A DNA stretch of 64,000 bases from Nitrosospira multiformis. GTDB lineage: Bacteria > Pseudomonadota > Gammaproteobacteria > Burkholderiales > Nitrosomonadaceae. Numbering within the stretch: position 1 is the first letter of the stretch; every line of letters begins with the position of its first letter. The notes beneath the pieces were generated by a model. That model saw nothing but the letters and a program-made list of their open reading frames with translations, did not search any database and was not told the DNA's origin. The stretch covers positions 197,076-261,075 of the forward strand of contig NZ_FOCT01000005.1 of NCBI RefSeq assembly GCF_900110185.1, written 5' to 3'. Shown piece by piece: positions 31,321 to 41,790 of this stretch. Position numbers and translations under genes: made by a program.

Positions 31321-31483
31321 ATAAATCCGTCAAGGGCCACAGGTGCAAGGTAAACAGAAATGAGCCAGGGTGCTGGAAATCCGGGTGCTGAAAATCCTTT
31401 TCGTCAGCCCCAAAGACCGCAAGCCCCACAGTTTGTTACAATTATCATTTTGCATCATTCCGAACCCCTTTCTTAATCGCTTG

Positions 31484-33670
31484 ATGAACAAACGGAAAAT
31501 CCTCGTCACCTCGGCCCTGCCCTATGCCAACGGCAGCATCCATCTCGGCCATCTGGTGGAGTACATACAGACTGACATCTGGGTTCGTTTCCAGAAAATG
31601 CAAGAGCACGAGGTCCATTATGTTTGCGCGGACGACGCGCATGGCACGCCGATCATGCTTCGCGCAGAGCAGGAAAGCATCACTCCACGACAGCTGATAG
31701 ACCGCGTATGGCATGAGCATAAGGCGGATTTCGATGGTTTCCATATTGGCTTCGACCACTATTACACTACCGATTCGCCTGAGAATCAGGCGTTTTGCGA
31801 AGATATCTACCGTCAGCTCAGGGCAAGGGATCTGATTGCCAAACGTTCGGTGGAACAGTTTTATGATCCGGTCAAGCAGATGTTTTTGCCGGATCGATAC
31901 ATCAAGGGCGAATGCCCAAGGTGTCATGCCGGCGACCAGTATGGAGATTCCTGTGAGGTTTGCGGAGCCACCTATTCGCCCACCGACCTGATCAGCCCCT
32001 ACTCTGCCGTCTCCGGCGCCAAACCGGAGCGCCGCACTTCGAATCACTATTTCTTCAAACTCTCGGATGTGCGTTGCGAAACTTTCCTCAAAAACTGGAT
32101 ATTTGAATCGATTCCGGCTCAACCTGGCGTCGCTTTGGAAACGAGACCGCGACTTCAACCTGAAGCTGCCAATAAAATGAACGAGTGGCTTTCAGCGGGC
32201 CTCGTGGATTGGGATATCTCGCGTGATGCACCCTATTTCGGCTTCCCTATTCCACATACCGGCGGAAAGAAATTTTTCTATGTGTGGCTGGATGCGCCGG
32301 TCGGCTATTTCGGCAGCTTCAAGAATTACTTCAAGCAGAACCAGCGAACCCAGGCCGAGATCGATGAATTCCTGCGTCCTGGTGGCAATACGGAAATGGT
32401 GCATTTCATAGGGAAGGATATTCTCTACTTTCACGCCCTGTTCTGGCCGGCAATGCTGGAATTCTCGGGATATCGCACCCCTACTCAGATTTATGCTCAC
32501 GGGTTTCTCACCGTCAACGGCCAGAAAATGTCCAAATCCCGGGGGACTTTCATTACCGCTGAGAGCTATCTGAAGCAATGTCTGAATCCGGAATGGTTGC
32601 GTTATTACTACGCTGCCAAACTCAACGACAGCATGGAGGATATCGATCTCAACTTCGAGGATTTTGTCGCGCGCGTGAACAGCGATCTGGTAGGGAAATA
32701 TGTCAATATCGCCAGCAGATGCGCAGGGTTCATCATCAAAAAATTCGGTGGCGAGCTTACGCACAACATTTCGGAAGCAAGCCGGAAATGGTTCAATCAG
32801 TTTCTTTTTTGCGAACTGGGAGAGGGAGATACTTTCCTCGGTCGTCATATGTCCATTGCAAATTTCTATGAACGCAGGGAGTTCAGCAAAGCGATCAAGG
32901 AAATCATGTCGGCGGCGGATGTGGCCAACCAATATGTGGATCGGATGAAACCCTGGGTATTGGCGAAAGACAGCAGGAACGACAGGGAATTGCATGAAGT
33001 ATGCAGCGTCGCGTTGAATATGTTCCGGATGCTGACGGTGTATCTGAAACCCGTGTTGCCGAAGCTTGCGATGGAAGCGGAGCAGTTCCTGGGATTGGAT
33101 CCTCTTACATGGAAGGATGCAAATTCGCAGCACAGATTATTGCCGGAGGGACATCGGATCAACGATTACGAGCACTTGATGACCCGGATCGATCCGAAAC
33201 AGATCGAAATGCTTACCAATGCAAACAAGGAAAGCCTGGCGCCCGCAGAGTCACAGCAGGCTGCACAAGCTGTAGAAACCATGGAAAAAAACTCTTCCGC
33301 CACACCTGCGCCTGCAAAAGCAGGAGAAGCAGGTCAAGCCAGTGCGTCGACCATCTCCATCGAGGATTTCGGCAAAATCGATCTCAGGGTCGCGAAAATC
33401 CTCGATGCGGAGCATGTGCCGGGCGCCGACAAGCTGCTCAAGCTCACCCTGGATATCGCATCCGAGCAGCGAACCGTATTTGCGGGCATAAAATCCGCCT
33501 ATGATCCCGAGCAGCTCAAGGGACGCCTGACCATCATGGTTGCTAACTTGGCGCCGCGCAAGATGAAGTTCGGTGTATCCGAGGGAATGGTACTGGCGGC
33601 GGGAGACGGTGATGGTCCTTACCTGCTCTCTCCCGATGAAGGCGCCCGGCCGGGAATGAAAGTTAAATAA
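31484..33670 (+). CDS. metG: Methionyl-tRNA synthetase
   Basis: The 728-residue enzyme charges tRNA-Met. I start at ATG 31484 because [22 protein letters not shown] is the standard N-terminus; the frame is open to 31370. The HIGH motif is HLGH (20-23), a zinc knuckle CPRC ... CEVC lies near 143-160, and KMSKS is near 347. After a Pro/Ala-rich linker (about 595-622) comes an EMAP/Trbp111-type tRNA-binding domain ([18 protein letters not shown] to PGMKVK) that dimerises the enzyme. A diverged copy of the last 29 codons occurs at 36114-36203. Confidence 0.97.
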
Positions 33671-33693
33671 CTCCGCTAGACAGTCTCATCCAT

Positions 33694-34096
33694 TTACTGG
33701 GGCGGCGGCTCGGCAGTTATGCAAAGCTTGAAGTTCGGGTTACCTCCTGCGCCCTGCTCCCAGCAACCCGCCCCGTCAACCGCTCCGCATTCCGACGAAT
33801 CGCAATTTTGCGACGCTCCGCCCGCACATTTTGCCGTGCAGGAAGCTCCGTCAGGATCGATTTTTAGCGTCAGGTCATTGGTTGGAGCAACTCCATTTCT
33901 TCTAAGTAATTCCTTCAGCGATTGAAGAGCGCGACGTGTAAGGCCTAATTTGGTATTTTTGAAAAGCTTCCAGCCTGTCTGTCGCCCCCCTGCAACGTCA
34001 CGTCGCTCACCGCGTTCATGTAGCACAGGCGCTAGCCAGTAGTGCCAGTACACCCCCAAGGAAAAGTGAACGACTACGATGATGAATTTTCGTCAT
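33694..34096 (-). pseudogene. Secreted Cys-rich small protein, frameshifted
   Basis: AAGGAGA precedes ATG 34096, and translation gives a neat signal peptide (TKIHHRSRSLFLGGVLALLASACA) that ends at TGA 34016 after 26 residues. The neighbouring frame is open from 34059 through that point to 33694 and carries a protein-like tail with three or four Cys pairs (DGASCTAKCAGG, NCDSSEC, GCWEQ, KLCITAEPPPQ). A one-base indel near 34018-34030 would join the two. It may be a disabled secreted or lipoprotein gene, or a sequencing error. I do not recognise the family. Confidence 0.55.
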
Positions 34097-34566
34097 TATT
34101 GCGTCTCCTTTTGCTCTTGTTTAACAGCTTTAAAAGCCTGTGCGGAAACTGGTGCTCATCGTAAATTACTATTTAACAATTAGCAGAAACTCTGAAAAAC
34201 GTAAGGAATGAGCAATTTCATGCGGTATGGATGCTTTCGATATCATACAGGTACGAATTGGAAAACTTCCTGAGAAGCTTTTAAGCCGGGAATGTCAATC
34301 CGTGTCGAAATCATGGTCCTATGAACCTTGATTTTATTTTCTTGCGTTTTCGTCAGAATGATGTATTTAGATAGTATGAAAGGTTGAATCAGGTTGAATT
34401 TGGGGCGAAATTCATCTGCTAGCGAAATGAAAGTTTACTCAACCGCAGGTGACGCATAAAGGGGAGGACCTCCACCGCGAGCTAAAATACTTCATCTCAT
34501 TTTCCTCATCAATATAGGTTTTCCTGCTCTCTCAGAAAATAGGAGAAATTCGGGGCTTCTACTAGT
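34097..34566. other. AT-rich intergenic stretch
   Basis: About 470 bases between the broken secreted-protein gene and the TPR gene. I see no gene, RNA or strong promoter. Composition is lower in GC than the flanking housekeeping genes, in keeping with an inserted patch. Confidence 0.4.
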
Positions 34567-35925
34567 TTGTTTTCTCAAGATCATATCGAAGCAAAGGTGG
34601 ATAAAACCTACCAAAAAACTGGAGTTGGACAGAGAATTTCTTCATTCCGAAAACCTATTCGAGGTCTAGGATTAACTGTTTTGCTGCTTTTCGGCTTCAG
34701 TTCCCTTATCAAGCTCAAGCAAGCAGTTCGCGCCCAAGTAATTCCAGATCCTGTAGAAGTCCCCAGAGATAAAAAACCTATCAAAAAAAAATCATTTGCG
34801 AGAAGGATTTCATCCTGCTGCAAATTTATCTTTGATCTAATCAAAAAAACCTTATCTGCGAGACGGATTTCATGCTGCCGGAAAATTATCTTTGATCTAA
34901 CCTTAATTGCTGGTTTGTCTTTTGGAATCTGGTCAGTGATCCATCAGGTGTGGCGACTCGAGGTTTTCTTAGATCCTATAGAGGTACCTGAGGATATTGC
35001 GAAATCAGGATATACGGGCATTGTTGTTGCCGAGAAGCTTGCGGATGCAGCGCTTAATATCCAGCATGAATTGCACGCGCAGAAAGCTTTTTCCTACCGC
35101 GGAGTCGAGCGCTCCTCTTCCGTCGAAGAGCCAGGTAAGACTTCCTTCACAGGGCGGGGTAAGAACATAAATCTGCAACAATTTGAAATAAGCGCCCGTA
35201 TACAGGATATATCGGTACCCGGAACACAATTCTCAATGCGAACCATCTCACGATTTATTCGGCAAGAGCTTGGTTTGCTCGTTCATATTCGCGGTGACCT
35301 CGTGCATGAGAAAGGTGGCCTTGTTTTGACCTTGCGAAACATGTCCCCGGAGATACCACACGTGCGTATTCCTCAGCGAGTCGAGCGAGTCGAGCGAGTC
35401 GAGCGAGTCGAGCGAGTCGAGCAATTATTCGAAAAAGGGGGAGAGGCTCTGTGGCGGCTCACGAACCCGTTAGTTCTTGCCCAATACAGGTATCACAAAT
35501 TAGCGTCTTCCACGGATCAGGAGAAAGAGTATCGCGAATCTGTGGAGATCTTTGAGTATTGCTTAAATCATCCATCGAAGACAGGTGATTCCCCAATCCA
35601 CGTCCTTTGGGGCGACTCTCTCCTAGTAATGAAGCAACCCGAGAAAGCAATCAAACAGTATAAAAAGGCCATTGATATCAAGGAGAAGTATGCACCCGCC
35701 TATAATGGATTGGGCAATGCTCTCCTAGACCTCAAGTGTCCCGAAGAAGCAATCGAACAGTATGAAAAGGCCATCAAGCACGATTCGAAATTCGGCCAAG
35801 CCTACTACAACTTAGGGAACGTTCTCCTAGACCTCGGGCGTCGAAAGGATGCGATCAAACAGTGGCCATCGATATCAAGGAGAAGTATGCACCCGCCTAT
35901 AATGGATGGGGCAATGCTCTCCTAA
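34567..35925 (+). CDS. TPR-repeat membrane protein with duplicated N-terminal segment (frame breaks near its end)
   Basis: 452 residues. The N-terminus holds two copies of one unit: a basic RRISS/C-R stretch, a membrane helix (about 36-54 and 111-130) and a closing DP(V/I)EVP(R/E)D. A soluble part follows (about 150-270), then five RVE triplets, then TPRs from about 330 (NPSKTGDSPIHVLWGD, KAIKQYKKAIDIKEKYAPAYNGLGNALL). At 35863 the sequence lacks ATAAAAA relative to its upstream sister repeat, so the last 20 residues are out of frame. The TTG start is doubtful because AGGAG is 21 bases away. Function unknown; TPRs suggest protein binding at the membrane. Confidence 0.65.
   Translation: MFSQDHIEAKVDKTYQKTGVGQRISSFRKPIRGLGLTVLLLFGFSSLIKLKQAVRAQVIPDPVEVPRDKKPIKKKSFARRISSCCKFIFDLIKKTLSARRISCCRKIIFDLTLIAGLSFGIWSVIHQVWRLEVFLDPIEVPEDIAKSGYTGIVVAEKLADAALNIQHELHAQKAFSYRGVERSSSVEEPGKTSFTGRGKNINLQQFEISARIQDISVPGTQFSMRTISRFIRQELGLLVHIRGDLVHEKGGLVLTLRNMSPEIPHVRIPQRVERVERVERVERVEQLFEKGGEALWRLTNPLVLAQYRYHKLASSTDQEKEYRESVEIFEYCLNHPSKTGDSPIHVLWGDSLLVMKQPEKAIKQYKKAIDIKEKYAPAYNGLGNALLDLKCPEEAIEQYEKAIKHDSKFGQAYYNLGNVLLDLGRRKDAIKQWPSISRRSMHPPIMDGAMLS
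35377..35421 (+). repeat. Five perfect 9-bp tandem repeats in the TPR gene
   Basis: CGAGTCGAG is repeated five times and encodes (Arg-Val-Glu)x5. The unit keeps frame, so copy-number change would alter the length of a charged linker between the soluble domain and the TPRs. Confidence 0.95.
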
Positions 35926-36110
35926 ACCTCAATCGGCCCGAAGAAGCAATCGAACAGTATGAAAAGGCTATCTATATCGATAAAGAGTATGTTCCGGCCT
36001 ATAACGGATGGGGCAATGCTCTCCAAAAACTGAATCGACCTGAAGAGGCGAAAGAGAAATTTCGCGAGGCGACTGATCTCACTGGATGTAAATTATTCCG
36101 GCCCTATTGA
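35862..36110 (+). pseudogene. Displaced 3' end of the TPR gene
   Basis: The frame entered after the 7-base deletion encodes two more TPRs (IDIKEKYAPAYNGWGNALLN, EYVPAYNGWGNALQK) and the natural C-terminus FREATDLTGCKLFRPY. Its first 60 or so bases are nearly identical to 35668-35735, showing a recent repeat duplication. With the missing seven bases restored, the whole protein would be about 515 residues. Confidence 0.8.
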
Positions 36111-37286
36111 TTCGAGGAAATGGTGCGGACCGTGGGAGACGGTGAAGGCCCTCATCTGCTCTCTCCCGATGAAGGTGCACGTCCCGGAATGAAGGTGAAA
36201 TAACGAGGATGGATTCCTGGACTTGGCGGACTTAGCGAAGTGTGCGCTGGCCGGTTGGTTTTTTCCGGCAACGCCGATACACCAGAGCAGGAAGGCAGCC
36301 AATGCGGCGATCAACAGCAAGTTCGTGCGGCGCTGCTGGCCAATGCGATTGGCGTGGGCCACGCCCAAGCCATAGCGATAGTTTTTGCTGTCGCGAAAGC
36401 CTTCTTCGATTTGCATCCGCGCTTGGTACAGCTTCATGATCTGCCTGGCGGTGAACGCTTGCAGCGAGAGGGAGGCCACCAGCAGCCAAGGTTCTTTTTC
36501 GCGCCTGGCTTGTTTCTTACTGTGGTGTGACTGACTCTGGCGGCCCGATTGGTTGCACCGCTGCCGCCCTTTTTTGGGTTGCCGCACCAAAACGAGAAAA
36601 GCTTGCAGCGGCTGCCGCCGCACCCACTGAACCGTGCCCAGGTCAGCGGGTTTGGTGGTGGCTTTCGCATACAGCGACGTTGCACTGAACCATGCACCGG
36701 CGGGATTCTGCCAACTGATAAAATCACGATTCCGGATACGCCCCACCCAGTGCCAGCCCAGTGTGTGTTCGACGTAACGATAGAACGGCACACGAAACCC
36801 GGAATCCGCTACGATGATCGGATGACTCGCCAGCGGCAGCATGGTTTTGAGTGTTGCTAAAAAGTCCTGTTGGACTCTGCGATTGCCCAGTTTGGAGCGG
36901 GGATACACTTCCTCATACAATGTCAGTGCCCGGCCTCTCACCGGTAACGATGCACGTAATACGTGATGCTCCTGGTCAGCGCGCAAGGGTGACCAGTCGA
37001 TGAGAATAATGGGGTGGGACAACCCCTGTACCAGCCATCGAGTCAGTGCAGTATAAAGACTCCAGCGTTCCTGATAGAGCCGGGTGTTGCCGATCAAACG
37101 ATCCATGCGCTTGATCTTGTGTTTGACGAAAGCCGCACTGGAAAGGCTGCGGCCTAAGGACGTGATCGATACCTGAGCGCCGCATAAGACCGCGCCGACA
37201 GCAGCCATTAATGTTTGCAGGCGGGTACGGTGGATGGACGGTACCGCTTTTTGAGGGTGTTTGTGTAATATCGCGACAGAGTGCAT
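36093..37286 (-). CDS. IS4-family DDE transposase, 3' end truncated
   Basis: 397 residues as read. Catalytic features: Asp in IILIDWSPLR (about 94), Asp in PIIVADSGFR (about 160), and the IS4 signature Y(2)R(3)E(6)K in YQARMQIEEGFRDSKN (about 292-306). After KNQPASAHFAKSAKSRN the frame runs past the probable break into the complement of the metG copy, so the last 40 or so residues (LFHLHSG ... ESIGPE) are not transposase. No inverted repeat could be matched between the two sides. Probably inactive. Confidence 0.85.
   Translation of the reverse strand: MHSVAILHKHPQKAVPSIHRTRLQTLMAAVGAVLCGAQVSITSLGRSLSSAAFVKHKIKRMDRLIGNTRLYQERWSLYTALTRWLVQGLSHPIILIDWSPLRADQEHHVLRASLPVRGRALTLYEEVYPRSKLGNRRVQQDFLATLKTMLPLASHPIIVADSGFRVPFYRYVEHTLGWHWVGRIRNRDFISWQNPAGAWFSATSLYAKATTKPADLGTVQWVRRQPLQAFLVLVRQPKKGRQRCNQSGRQSQSHHSKKQARREKEPWLLVASLSLQAFTARQIMKLYQARMQIEEGFRDSKNYRYGLGVAHANRIGQQRRTNLLLIAALAAFLLWCIGVAGKNQPASAHFAKSAKSRNPSSLFHLHSGTCTFIGREQMRAFTVSHGPHHFLESIGPE
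36114..36203 (+). pseudogene. Second, diverged copy of the metG 3' end
   Basis: This 90-base segment reads in frame as EEMVRTVGDGEGPHLLSPDE continuing GARPGMKVK and a stop. It matches the last 29 residues of the metG product with 23 identities, and differs at many silent positions. No start or upstream metG sequence precedes it; the homology begins just after the TPR stop. It looks like the end of a foreign or old metG allele, not a PCR-fresh duplication. Confidence 0.85.
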
Positions 37287-37330
37287 GGGACCTCCTGAAA
37301 AGTATGTATTCAGGAAAAAGTTTCATGCAC
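36204..37330 (-). mobile_element. IS4-type insertion sequence remnant
   Basis: The body of the element is the transposase gene plus a few tens of bases upstream of its ATG. The transposase 3' end is fused to the metG copy and the matching terminal inverted repeat is missing. The left limit is set by the end of the metG homology; the right limit is approximate. Confidence 0.6.
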
Positions 37331-37460
37331 TCGCAGTTTCAGATTAAGTGTATATCATAAGCCCTTGCCATATAAAAATATTTTATGGGGATAGCTCAGA
37401 GTCGGACCCCATTGATTCCTTGTGACCTCACCGCCATGGATCACGAGATAAGGATACGAT

Positions 37461-40400
37461 CTACGCCCGCTGTCCCGCCAGGTCCCCCGTCTCGAGCTTC
37501 AATGGTCCTTTGCCGGAATATCGGTCCAGGTATAGATAGATCACCGGTGTGATGAACAAGGTGATCACCTGAGAAAACAGTAGCCCACCTACCACGGCAA
37601 GGCCCAGCGGCTGGCGCAATTCCGCGCCTGCTCCCAATCCCAGAGCGATAGGAAGCGCGCCCATCAGGGCCGCCAGAGTGGTCATCATGATTGGCCGGAA
37701 TCGCAGCAGGCAAGCGGTCCTGATCGCTTCCTGAGGTGTCATCCCTTCGTTGCGCTGGGCATCGAGCGCGAAATCGATCATCATGATGGCGTTCTTTTTA
37801 ACTATGCCGATCAGCATAAGGATGCCGATCATGGCGATGATCGAGAGTTCCATATTGAACAGCCATAGCATTCCCAAAGCTCCAACCGCAGCCGATGGCA
37901 ATCCTGAAAGGATCGTGACGGGATGGATATAGCTTTCATACAGCACACCCAGCAAAACATAGATGACCAGCAACGCGCCGATGATGAGTATCACCTGGCT
38001 TGCCTGTGAGGACTGGAATGCCGCGGCATCGCCCGCATAGCTCGTGAGAATGCTGGCGGGGACATTCAGTTCACGCTTGAACTTCTCTATTCGGACAGAG
38101 GCTTCCCCCAGCGCGGCCCCGGGCGCGAGATTGAACGAGATGGTCAACGACTCGAGCTGACCGGAGTGGTTGATCGCAAGGGGTCCCACCTGCCGTTCAA
38201 CCGATGCAACGCTGGAGAGTGGCACCAGCATGCCGTTCTTGCCACGCAGGTAGATTTTATCGAACGCACTCTCGTCAGCGCGGTCCTCCGAGGCTACCTG
38301 CAGGATAACCGGATAACTGTCGCTGGAGGTATAGATCGTCGACACCTGGCGCTCACCAAACGCGCTGTACAACAGAGAACGGATATCGGACATCTGCACG
38401 CCCAGCAGATTGACTTTGTCACGATTGATATTGAGTTGCGCCTGCAGGCCCTTCAACTGGGAATCGCTGGTGACATCGCGGAATATTGGATCGGCACGCA
38501 TGCGCGCCATCAGACCCTCTGCCGCACCGCGCAATTCCTCCGCGCGCACACTGCGCATGACATACTGATAACGGCTCTTGCTGGTGCGCCCTCCCAGCCT
38601 GAGATTCTGAATGGGATTGATGAAAACGTTGACGCCGGGAATAGCGCTGACCTCGCGCCGCAAATCTTCCATTACCTTGTTGAGAGGGGGACGTTCGCTC
38701 CGCGGCTTCAAGGTCATGAACAACCGCGCGCTATTGCTTTCGGTCGCATTGACGATGAGTGTGTCAACAGCTGGATTGGCGCGCATGATTTCCCCCGTTC
38801 GCTGCAATAATTCCGTCATGGCCGGAAAGGAAATATCTTCAACCGCATCCACCGTGATCAGCGCCTGTCCGATATCCTCCGTAGGGAAAAAACCTTTGGG
38901 CAAGACCACGAACAAGCCTGCCGTGGCAATGAAGGTGCCCATGGCAATGCCGAGCACGGTGCGGCGATGACGCAATGCGAGATCGAGGAAGCGTTCATAG
39001 ACTCCCAGGGTACGGATGAATCCCCGCTCGAACCAGGCAGTCCACTTCAGACTTCTGCCCTCGGGCTCGTGCTGGACGATATACCGACTTGTCATCACGG
39101 GCACCAGCGTGAGCGAGACAAGCGCCGACATCATGATGGCGATGCCCACTACTCCTGCAAACTCGTGAAAAAGCAGGCCGATTACTCCGGGCATGAAAAA
39201 AATCGGGATGAAGACGGCCACCAGCGAGAGGGAAATCGACATGATGGTAAAACTCACCTCTTTCGACCCCACCAGAGCCGCTTGCAAGGGCGGCATCCCC
39301 TCCTCGATATGACGAACGATATTTTCCAGCATTACAATGGCATCATCCACGACTAGGCCGACCGCAAGCGTGATTGCCAGCAGCGAAATATTGTCCAGGC
39401 TGTAATCGAGCAGATACATCATCGCTACGGTTCCAAGCAGCGAGATCGGCAGCGACAGCGCCGGAATCAGCGTGGCGGAAGCCTTCCGCAGGAACAGGAA
39501 AATCACAAGCAGAACGAGTACGATCGTTACCGCCAGCGTGACCTGCACATCATGAATCGAGTCGCGAATCGAAACCGAGCGGTCGCTGGTCAGCTTGAGT
39601 TGCACCGATGAAGGCATTTGCGCGACCAGCGTCGGCAGGGCAGCTTTTATGGCATCCACGGTCGCCACCGTATTCGCGCCCGGCTGGCGCTGCACCGACA
39701 AGGTTATTGCCCGCTCGCCATTGGCCCAGCTTGCGGTCTTGACCGACTGAACGCTGTCTTCAACTTCCGCTACTTCCGAGAGGCGCACGGGGTTGCCTGC
39801 GTCAGAGGTCGCCACGATCAGATCCGCGAAGGCTGCCGCGTTTCCGAGCTGGCGGTTGGCCTGAATGGTAAGAGTCTGGCGCGGACCCTCGAGAGTGCCG
39901 ATCGGCGTGTTGGCGTTGGCAGTCCCCAGCGCAGTGGCAATATCGTCCAGCGTCAAATTGCGGACAGCAAGCGCTTCCGCATTGACATGGATACGTACGG
40001 CGTATTTTTTCTGGCCGTTGATCTGGACCTGCGCAACGCCCGACAGCGTTGACAAAGTGGGAGCAATCAGGTCTTCGGCAAGACTGTTCAGTTCCGACAG
40101 CGACATCGAAGGCGATGTCAGCGTAAGGAAGAGGATGGGCGAATCCGCAGGATTGATCTTGCGATACGAGGGTGGCGACGTCATCTCAATCGGGAGAGCG
40201 CGCTCGGCTCGCAGCAAGGCCGCCTGTACGTCAATTGCCGCGCTGTCGATATCCCGTCTCTGGTCGAATTCCAGGGTAATCGCGGTATTGCCAAGCGTGC
40301 TGGTGGAGCTGATTACCGAAAGACCGGAGATCGTCGAGAATTGTCGCTCCAGTGGCGTGGCCACAGAGGAAGCCATTGTCTCGGGACTGGCACCCGGCAA

Positions 40401-40550
40401 TACCGCTGCCACCGAAATGGTGGGCGAGTCATAACTGGGAAGGGCAGCAATAGGCAAATTACCGTAAGCCATAATGCCGGCGAGAATAGCCGAGGCTGAT
40501 AACAGCACCGTCATGATGGGACGGCGAATACACAGTTCCGAGAGATTCAT
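37461..40550 (-). CDS. RND efflux transporter, inner-membrane permease
   Basis: 1029 residues from ATG 40550 (MNLSELCIRRPIMTVLLS), 47 bases after the adaptor stop; the ORF extends upstream without family character. It shows the RND plan: 12 helices, two large periplasmic loops, and the proton-relay pair Asp-Asp in VGLVVDDAIVMLENIVRH of TM4. FLRKASATLIPALSLPISLLG is typical of the MdtB/MdtC/MuxB branch. It exports drugs or other small molecules by proton antiport together with the adaptor and an outer-membrane channel; no channel gene is in the window. Confidence 0.93.
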   Translation of the reverse strand: MNLSELCIRRPIMTVLLSASAILAGIMAYGNLPIAALPSYDSPTISVAAVLPGASPETMASSVATPLERQFSTISGLSVISSTSTLGNTAITLEFDQRRDIDSAAIDVQAALLRAERALPIEMTSPPSYRKINPADSPILFLTLTSPSMSLSELNSLAEDLIAPTLSTLSGVAQVQINGQKKYAVRIHVNAEALAVRNLTLDDIATALGTANANTPIGTLEGPRQTLTIQANRQLGNAAAFADLIVATSDAGNPVRLSEVAEVEDSVQSVKTASWANGERAITLSVQRQPGANTVATVDAIKAALPTLVAQMPSSVQLKLTSDRSVSIRDSIHDVQVTLAVTIVLVLLVIFLFLRKASATLIPALSLPISLLGTVAMMYLLDYSLDNISLLAITLAVGLVVDDAIVMLENIVRHIEEGMPPLQAALVGSKEVSFTIMSISLSLVAVFIPIFFMPGVIGLLFHEFAGVVGIAIMMSALVSLTLVPVMTSRYIVQHEPEGRSLKWTAWFERGFIRTLGVYERFLDLALRHRRTVLGIAMGTFIATAGLFVVLPKGFFPTEDIGQALITVDAVEDISFPAMTELLQRTGEIMRANPAVDTLIVNATESNSARLFMTLKPRSERPPLNKVMEDLRREVSAIPGVNVFINPIQNLRLGGRTSKSRYQYVMRSVRAEELRGAAEGLMARMRADPIFRDVTSDSQLKGLQAQLNINRDKVNLLGVQMSDIRSLLYSAFGERQVSTIYTSSDSYPVILQVASEDRADESAFDKIYLRGKNGMLVPLSSVASVERQVGPLAINHSGQLESLTISFNLAPGAALGEASVRIEKFKRELNVPASILTSYAGDAAAFQSSQASQVILIIGALLVIYVLLGVLYESYIHPVTILSGLPSAAVGALGMLWLFNMELSIIAMIGILMLIGIVKKNAIMMIDFALDAQRNEGMTPQEAIRTACLLRFRPIMMTTLAALMGALPIALGLGAGAELRQPLGLAVVGGLLFSQVITLFITPVIYLYLDRYSGKGPLKLETGDLAGQRA

Positions 40551-40599
40551 CGCGCTGACTTCATGCGGGTTGCAGATCGGTCCTGCCAAAACAATTTGC

Positions 40600-41790
40600 T
40601 CATCCGGAGTTTCTACCCGCTGGCCCGGCACCGGTCTTGATGGAACTCGCCTCCGTTACGGCGCTGCCCGGACGGAGATTCTGCGCCCCCTCCGCCACCA
40701 CATGCATCCCGGAAGTAATAGCCTTTCCCTCTACTACCGCAAACCCTTCCTGTACCAGGCGCACCTCGACCGAAAAAGGCTTTACCTTTCCGGTTTCGTC
40801 CAGTACATACAGGAATTTTCCTTCCGGTCCATTCTGCACGGCCTGCACCGGCACCGTCAGGGCATGGATCAAAGTTTGGGGCGCGAGCGACACCATGACA
40901 AACATGCCTGGCCACAGGTGCCTGTCCGCATTGGGAAACTCTGCCTTGAGACGAATTGTACCGCTTGCCGTATCGACGGTATTATCGATGAATATCAGAC
41001 GGCCGGTTCTTGTCTGTTTTTGTGGCCCATTCAGTTCGACGGTTACCAGCACCTCGCCTTTCGCAAAAGCCTGCTGCAAAGGTATGAACTCGCGTTCCGG
41101 CAAAGTGAAGCTGACGTTGATCGGATCGATCTGGGTAATACTCACCAAAGCATCGTTGGGCTGCACCAGGCTGCCCTGATATACCGAAATGGCGCCCGAA
41201 CGACCAGAGATCGGGGCAGTGATTTCGCTGAAACCGCGGGCGATTCGATTCGCCTGAGCTGTAGCCTCATCGACCGTAAGCTGGGCGCGCAGCGCATCCA
41301 CCTGATTCTCCGCCACATCCAGGGCCGCCTGCGAAATAAAACCCTGCCGGAACAGTTCCCGCTGGCGTTCAAGATTACGTTCCGCATTTCTCAGATCGGC
41401 GCGTGACTTCGCCAGTTGCCCCTCTGTTCTGCGCACATTGGCATCCTCGGTGCGAGCGTCGAGCGTGAAAAGCGGCTCGCCCTTTCGAACGAATTGACCT
41501 TCCCTGATATGCACGGCGCTGATCATTGCGCTCAACTGGGGTCGCACGGCCACCGTCTGCTGCGCAGACACGGTACCGTTGGCAGCGAGTTGCACCGGTA
41601 CATTCTGTTGGTTGATGACCGCTGTTATTACCGGCGTAGGTTCCGAAGTCTTCTTCTTCGCCTCGGTCGCTCCACTCGGGTTACGCCACACCCAGACCCC
41701 TGCTATCAGGGCAGCGAGTATAAGACCAAGGATTGTGACTCTCAGGCGCCGGACAGGCGTAACCCTTTTTATTTCAGAAATAGCTTCCAT
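40600..41790 (-). CDS. RND efflux periplasmic adaptor (membrane fusion protein)
   Basis: 396 residues: an N-terminal membrane anchor (RVTILGLILAALIAGVWVW, about 18-36), a lipoyl/barrel half with VHIREGQFVRKGEPLFTLD, a coiled-coil hairpin (about 115-180), the matching lipoyl half with ITAPISGRSGAISVYQGS, and a C-terminal beta-barrel and membrane-proximal domain. This is the MdtA-type plan. It is the first gene of the two-gene pump operon. Downstream the permease starts 50 bases later. Confidence 0.93.
   Translation of the reverse strand: MEAISEIKRVTPVRRLRVTILGLILAALIAGVWVWRNPSGATEAKKKTSEPTPVITAVINQQNVPVQLAANGTVSAQQTVAVRPQLSAMISAVHIREGQFVRKGEPLFTLDARTEDANVRRTEGQLAKSRADLRNAERNLERQRELFRQGFISQAALDVAENQVDALRAQLTVDEATAQANRIARGFSEITAPISGRSGAISVYQGSLVQPNDALVSITQIDPINVSFTLPEREFIPLQQAFAKGEVLVTVELNGPQKQTRTGRLIFIDNTVDTASGTIRLKAEFPNADRHLWPGMFVMVSLAPQTLIHALTVPVQAVQNGPEGKFLYVLDETGKVKPFSVEVRLVQEGFAVVEGKAITSGMHVVAEGAQNLRPGSAVTEASSIKTGAGPAGRNSG

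Follow-up and report, generated by a model that had tools for sequence, protein, structure and literature searches.

Two metG 3' ends in Nitrosospira multiformis: a putative hybrid gene and a putatively displaced native tail, probably left by homology-facilitated illegitimate recombination

Why does a housekeeping gene possess two 3' ends, and which of them is native? This question is raised by metG, the gene encoding methionyl-tRNA synthetase, in a 64,000-nucleotide stretch of Nitrosospira multiformis DNA (the window; positions 197076-261075 of contig C14 in the 3.57-Mb genome G000), where the gene ends with its stop codon at 33670 and its final 90 bp (29 codons and the stop) are repeated at 36114-36203, with accessory genes lying between the two copies. 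In a preliminary description made from the sequence alone, the second copy was regarded as the newcomer, derived from another lineage, and either site-specific integration at the gene's 3' end or recombination with a related metG allele was offered as the cause. A comparison with 22 relatives (23 genus genomes including G000) suggests that the roles of the two copies are most likely reversed, the second copy carrying the tail and flank of close relatives and the live metG carrying the foreign end. The arrangement is predicted, with a probability of roughly 0.62, to have been produced by homology-facilitated illegitimate recombination (HFIR) of linear DNA from a relative.

Two metG ends of different affinity

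The duplication itself was confirmed. The two copies are identical at 74/90 bases and 23/29 residues, compared with 41-42/90 at the best other sites of the window on either strand, and they share an identical run of 20 bp (33623-33642 and 36156-36175). In the live gene the reading frame and the stop are intact, so that the gene end is restored. On the right-hand side, the identity between the copies ends at about 36111-36113, with only 18 of the preceding 64 bases matching, and the edge of homology (about 36111) lies immediately 3' of the stop codon (36108-36110) of a TPR gene frame. This edge (36111-36113, base-level position approximate) is taken as an illegitimate join.

The live metG appears to be a hybrid whose last ~215 bp came from another, unsampled lineage. 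Identity to the closest relative, G007, was 96.7% over 31475-33430 and fell to 85.8% over 33450-33670, and in a breakpoint scan the five best splits were all located at 33444-33457, with an equally strong split in 0 of 1000 shuffles of the differences. The gene is accordingly divided into a putative native part (31475-33444, forward strand, Pfam tRNA-synt_1g) and a putative foreign 3' end (33457-33670, forward strand). Synonymous differences from G007 were found in 41 of 654 codons of the 5' part and in 27 of 70 codons of the 3' part (Fisher p about 1e-12, each difference counted as one codon), and amino-acid-changing codon differences numbered 16 and 3, respectively. Relaxed selection at the metG end was considered and rejected, since the extra changes are synonymous and the relatives compared with each other at the same split drop by only 0.4 to 3.2 points (95.3 to 93.8, 94.6 to 91.9, 92.7 to 89.5 and 90.9 to 90.5% in the four of six pairs computed). 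In trees of 22 metG sequences built separately for the two parts, G000 groups with G006 and G007 in the 5' part (support 99/100), and in the 3' part it falls outside the G006-G007-G008-G012 group, all five being held together at 95/88; its end branch measures 0.087 in the 3' tree versus 0.011 in the 5' tree.

The second copy (36114-36203, forward strand), which has no start of its own, is most likely the native metG tail displaced downstream. Over the last 90 bp its identity to G007, G006, G008 and G012 was 88.9, 87.8, 87.8 and 85.6%, compared with 85.6, 86.7, 85.6 and 83.3% for the live copy. At the five sites where these four relatives agree and the live copy differs, the second copy carries their base at four. 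Among the 16 sites differing between the two copies, the second copy shares its base with G007, G006, G008 and G012 at 9, 7, 8 and 8, and the live copy at 6 in every case; for the outgroups G020, G019 and G013, 3, 2 and 3 sites are shared with the second copy and 11 in every case with the live copy.

The affinity extends beyond the stop codon. A search for genomes in which metG is directly followed by the sequence from 36204 onward, proposed in the preliminary description, was successful in three relatives: the putative native flank (36204-36251, forward strand) aligns behind metG over 42 bases in G007, 41 in G006 and 24 in G012. Alignments crossing the stop gave 87.5% identity to G007 (36110-36245), 85.2% to G006 (36110-36244) and 85.2% to G012 (36120-36227), and the bases behind the live metG had no match to the flanks of G007, G006 and G012. 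Since the second copy carries both the metG end and the downstream flank of close relatives, it is read as the native tail.

The combination of two metG ends was seen rarely. In a first search of 61 genomes the metG tail was matched in 12, doubly in G000 only, and this search was insensitive, overlooking the own metG end of 10/22 genus relatives. In an order-wide survey of 399 genomes, with the genus represented by G000 and G016 only, two matches were found in three genomes, G000, G180 and G302, of which G302 is 88% complete and 5% contaminated. N runs adjoin both the second metG piece of G180 and one metG piece of G247, and these pieces are probably scaffolding artefacts; in these single-contig genomes of one genus (L135-L138), metG lies in separate pieces with N runs beside the C-terminal ones. 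No second metG end was present in the compared stretches downstream of the relatives' metG. One in-frame stop codon was noted in the metG match of G003 (L046) and likewise in that of G004 (L050).

Cargo between the copies and its possible entry

As described before, a broken gene and a repeat-rich TPR gene lie between the two copies. The broken gene (33688-34100, reverse strand) is lipoprotein-like and resembles, with 73% DNA identity over 256 bp, the gene that directly follows metG in G013, whose intact copy matches it by tblastn in two different frames; no Pfam family was found for its 121-aa open reading frame (ORF). This gene occurs in 2/23 genus genomes (G000 and G013), in both directly behind metG and on the same strand, and the order in G013 is metG, the intact lipoprotein-like gene and then an RND pump gene. 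Because the gene stands directly behind metG in G013 too, the foreign metG end and the left portion of the insert are most simply explained as a single piece of a relative's chromosome. The sharp breakpoint inside metG and the G013-type neighbour gene that apparently came with the foreign end thus bear out the earlier suggestion of recombination with a related metG allele.

The TPR gene (34567-36110, forward strand) is also frameshifted and encodes Pfam TPR families. The tandem repeats inside it measure 60 bp (in two copies), 9 bp (as a run) and about 102 bp. Its protein matched 15 loci in the contig search, every match lying at residues 312 and beyond, in the TPR-bearing part. The N-terminal part matched 1/300 order genomes, namely G000 itself, and no other genus member among the 21 matches listed; a partial relative of it was found in G008, on the same contig as metG and about 38 kb away. 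A plasmid or phage source was rejected, there being no plasmid match for the TPR N-terminal part and no phage match for the insert DNA. No transposase family was detected in the insert ORFs scanned, and an insertion sequence (IS)-borne insertion or composite transposon was likewise rejected, since a single truncated IS is present, on the outer side of the displaced tail only.

In HFIR, as described in PMC3240628, one homologous and one illegitimate join are formed and recipient DNA is lost; the process was reported for Streptococcus pneumoniae, Acinetobacter baylyi and Pseudomonas stutzeri, with insertions and deletions of comparable length (about 1 kb each) and with 3-10 bp of microhomology at most joins. 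The metG arrangement resembles it in having a homologous join and a putative non-homologous one, foreign DNA gained and some recipient DNA apparently lost. An ancestor of the strain would have received, probably by natural transformation, linear chromosomal DNA from a related but unsampled lineage, with a metG end, the lipoprotein-like gene and the TPR gene on it. A ComEC family gene (PF03772) was found in 22/23 genus genomes, G000 included, which allows transformation without demonstrating competence. At one end of the incoming DNA, homologous recombination with the resident metG would have taken place at about 33444-33457, where the breakpoint inside metG was located, and the other end would have been joined illegitimately to the resident metG about 90 bp before its stop, presumably in the same original event rather than by a later deletion. 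The products would be a hybrid metG that is still open, about 2.4 kb of foreign DNA and the old tail, stranded downstream together with the flank native to it; of the resident metG, roughly 120-135 bp between the two joins would have been lost. The cargo and the stranded tail would have decayed afterwards.

Several observations weigh against this interpretation. No donor genome for the insert was found in the order, genus and contig searches, and the resident loss of ~130 bp compared with an insert of about 2.6 kb is unlike the ~1 kb each of the HFIR work. Within the gene the second copy is only modestly nearer to the relatives than the live copy, and of the six sites where the four relatives agree and the second copy differs, five show the relatives' base in the live copy; four of these six sites lie in 36118-36133, and the six deviations may be read as later changes in a dead fragment. 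The fall in identity between G000 and G012 (92.5 to 88.5%) is close to that between G007 and G012 (92.7 to 89.5%), as is expected if the donor split off near the base of the group. The G006-G007-G008-G012 group in the 3' tree has a support of 93/86 (unstarred, bootstrap unsettled), and approximately unbiased (AU) tests on the short 3' part were weak, giving p 0.048 when G000 was placed with G007 and 0.161 when it was placed with G006 and G007.

Other explanations and meaning of the scar

The position of the two joins bears on two of the alternative routes. The left switch lies 213-226 bp before the stop and the right copy starts 90 bp before it, so there is no common switch point and roughly 120-135 bp of native metG is missing between them; a circle crossover or an integrase core is expected to leave one switch point in both copies. 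In the unlikely case of a Campbell-type event, a circle, or linear DNA that had circularised, carrying a metG 3' fragment and the cargo would have entered by a single homologous crossover, leaving a full-length hybrid metG on the left and a 5'-truncated copy on the right, which would later have been partly deleted. This would account for the hybrid left copy and the native right end, and according to PMC3240628 linear DNA may circularise and integrate by single crossing-over, most candidate clones in its Escherichia coli conjugation test having a partial duplication rather than a deletion. However, an extra deletion is required because the right copy reaches only 90 bp, and the TPR N-terminal part lacks a plasmid match.

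Integrative elements that insert into gene 3' ends restore the gene end on one side and leave the native end on the other. The metG locus shares this layout, and the 20-bp run identical in both copies might be taken for a core, in keeping with the site-specific integration of a small element or satellite restoring the gene end. This explanation is nevertheless very improbable. No integrase was detected among the 14 ORFs scanned in and around the insert, none of the 13 PF00589 matches listed out of 21 in the own genome lies on this contig, and the PF00589 match nearest to metG in any genus genome, among those listed, is about 48 kb away (G022), so that the suggested look for an integrase near other metG loci gave no support. 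In the second copy native-like bases flank the 20-bp run on both sides, the left switch lies ~170 bp upstream of the run, no common core occurs at the switch points, and the left end of the cargo is ordinary chromosomal DNA of a relative. Integration at metG did not recur in the genomes compared, and a literature search aimed at this point yielded no paper on metG as an integration site, as judged by titles and the openings of abstracts.

Only slightly less improbable is the formation of metG, cargo and second end in another lineage, followed by import of the whole through ordinary homologous recombination at its two ends. In its favour, the donor remains unsampled, and the other crossover could lie in the right part of the second copy, but such an import merely shifts the same event to another lineage, and the flank after the second copy is that of close relatives. 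It is scarcely credible that the gene end was duplicated in tandem or that the assembly is at fault, although the usefully sensitive searches showed the arrangement in a single genome: the live copy diverges from its relatives suddenly and through synonymous changes, it is joined to another lineage's gene, and both joins are internal to a contig of 269,699 bp, in a genome whose listed contamination is 0.13%.

Under HFIR, the metG scar is a new instance of a known process and not a new system. According to PMC3240628 and PMC5361080, most knowledge of HFIR comes from selection experiments, in which it occurs far less often than homologous recombination, and elsewhere its action is inferred; the metG case differs in being an old natural scar, with a recipient loss (about 130 bp) far below the insert size. 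PMC5361080 proposes HFIR as the origin of displaced immunity genes and also cites the process in connection with orphan Rhs ends. In those effector-immunity modules and Rhs ends, too, an old gene end or a gene downstream persists behind the newcomer that displaced it, whereas metG encodes a housekeeping synthetase whose new end encodes nearly the same protein, and toxin or immunity genes were not seen here. The locus would thus offer a natural case with a readable homologous breakpoint, a co-transferred neighbour gene and a displaced native end. It also suggests what to look for elsewhere, namely genes whose hybrid end has a further end of the gene behind it that is typical of the clade, and tallying such scars would gauge the frequency of integrase-free gene gain. 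A duplicated gene end alone is no proof of site-specific integration, and the diverged copy need not be the newcomer.

The IS4-type element and the gap between metG and the pump gene

The IS4 remnant noted in the preliminary description is present (36252-37410, reverse strand, DDE_Tnp_1) and has no right end; it does not directly adjoin the second copy, starting at 36252, 48 bp after the second stop. Alignments with its copies in G002, G019, G005 and G009 share 36252 as their starting point, and the three copies inspected (L089, L090 and L092) continue past this position, indicating that the element in the window lacks its right end and is joined to the native metG flank. A separate deletion, probably later than the recombination at metG, would have joined the flank to the inside of the element. 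On the opposite strand the transposase frame runs on through the native flank into the displaced tail.

Beyond the element lies an RND efflux pump gene (37461-40631, reverse strand, ACR_tran), which is the convergent neighbour of metG in several relatives. The gap between metG and the pump gene is 3790 bp in the window. The pump gene was present in the compared stretch for 9/22 relatives, with spacers of 50 (G016), 130 (G001), 194 (G019), 234 (G015, G020 and G022), 861 (G013), 2536 (G008) and 7350 bp (G012). In G007 a match to the pump end was located about 13.8 kb from metG, and in the other 12 relatives the pump gene was absent from the compared stretch, some of these stretches being short; in G006 a short match to the pump end was found on the opposite side of metG, at a distance of about 38 kb.

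Since the gap ranges from 50 bp to about 13.8 kb and its contents differ in close relatives, it could be a recurrent entry point in the genus, where relatives' DNA is anchored by the conserved metG and joined illegitimately beyond it. This is a doubtful proposal, its odds being kept low because the hybrid end with a displaced tail has so far been seen in a single genome. If true, genes would be gained without an integrase, through repeated acquisition events anchored in a conserved housekeeping gene. The gaps of G007, G006, G008 and G012 (L060-L063) hold differing accessory genes, named by eye from their ORFs, including a methyltransferase, TetR-like and other genes. The methyltransferase of G007 has only a 30% match in G000, and transposase-like pieces were observed in the gap of G008.

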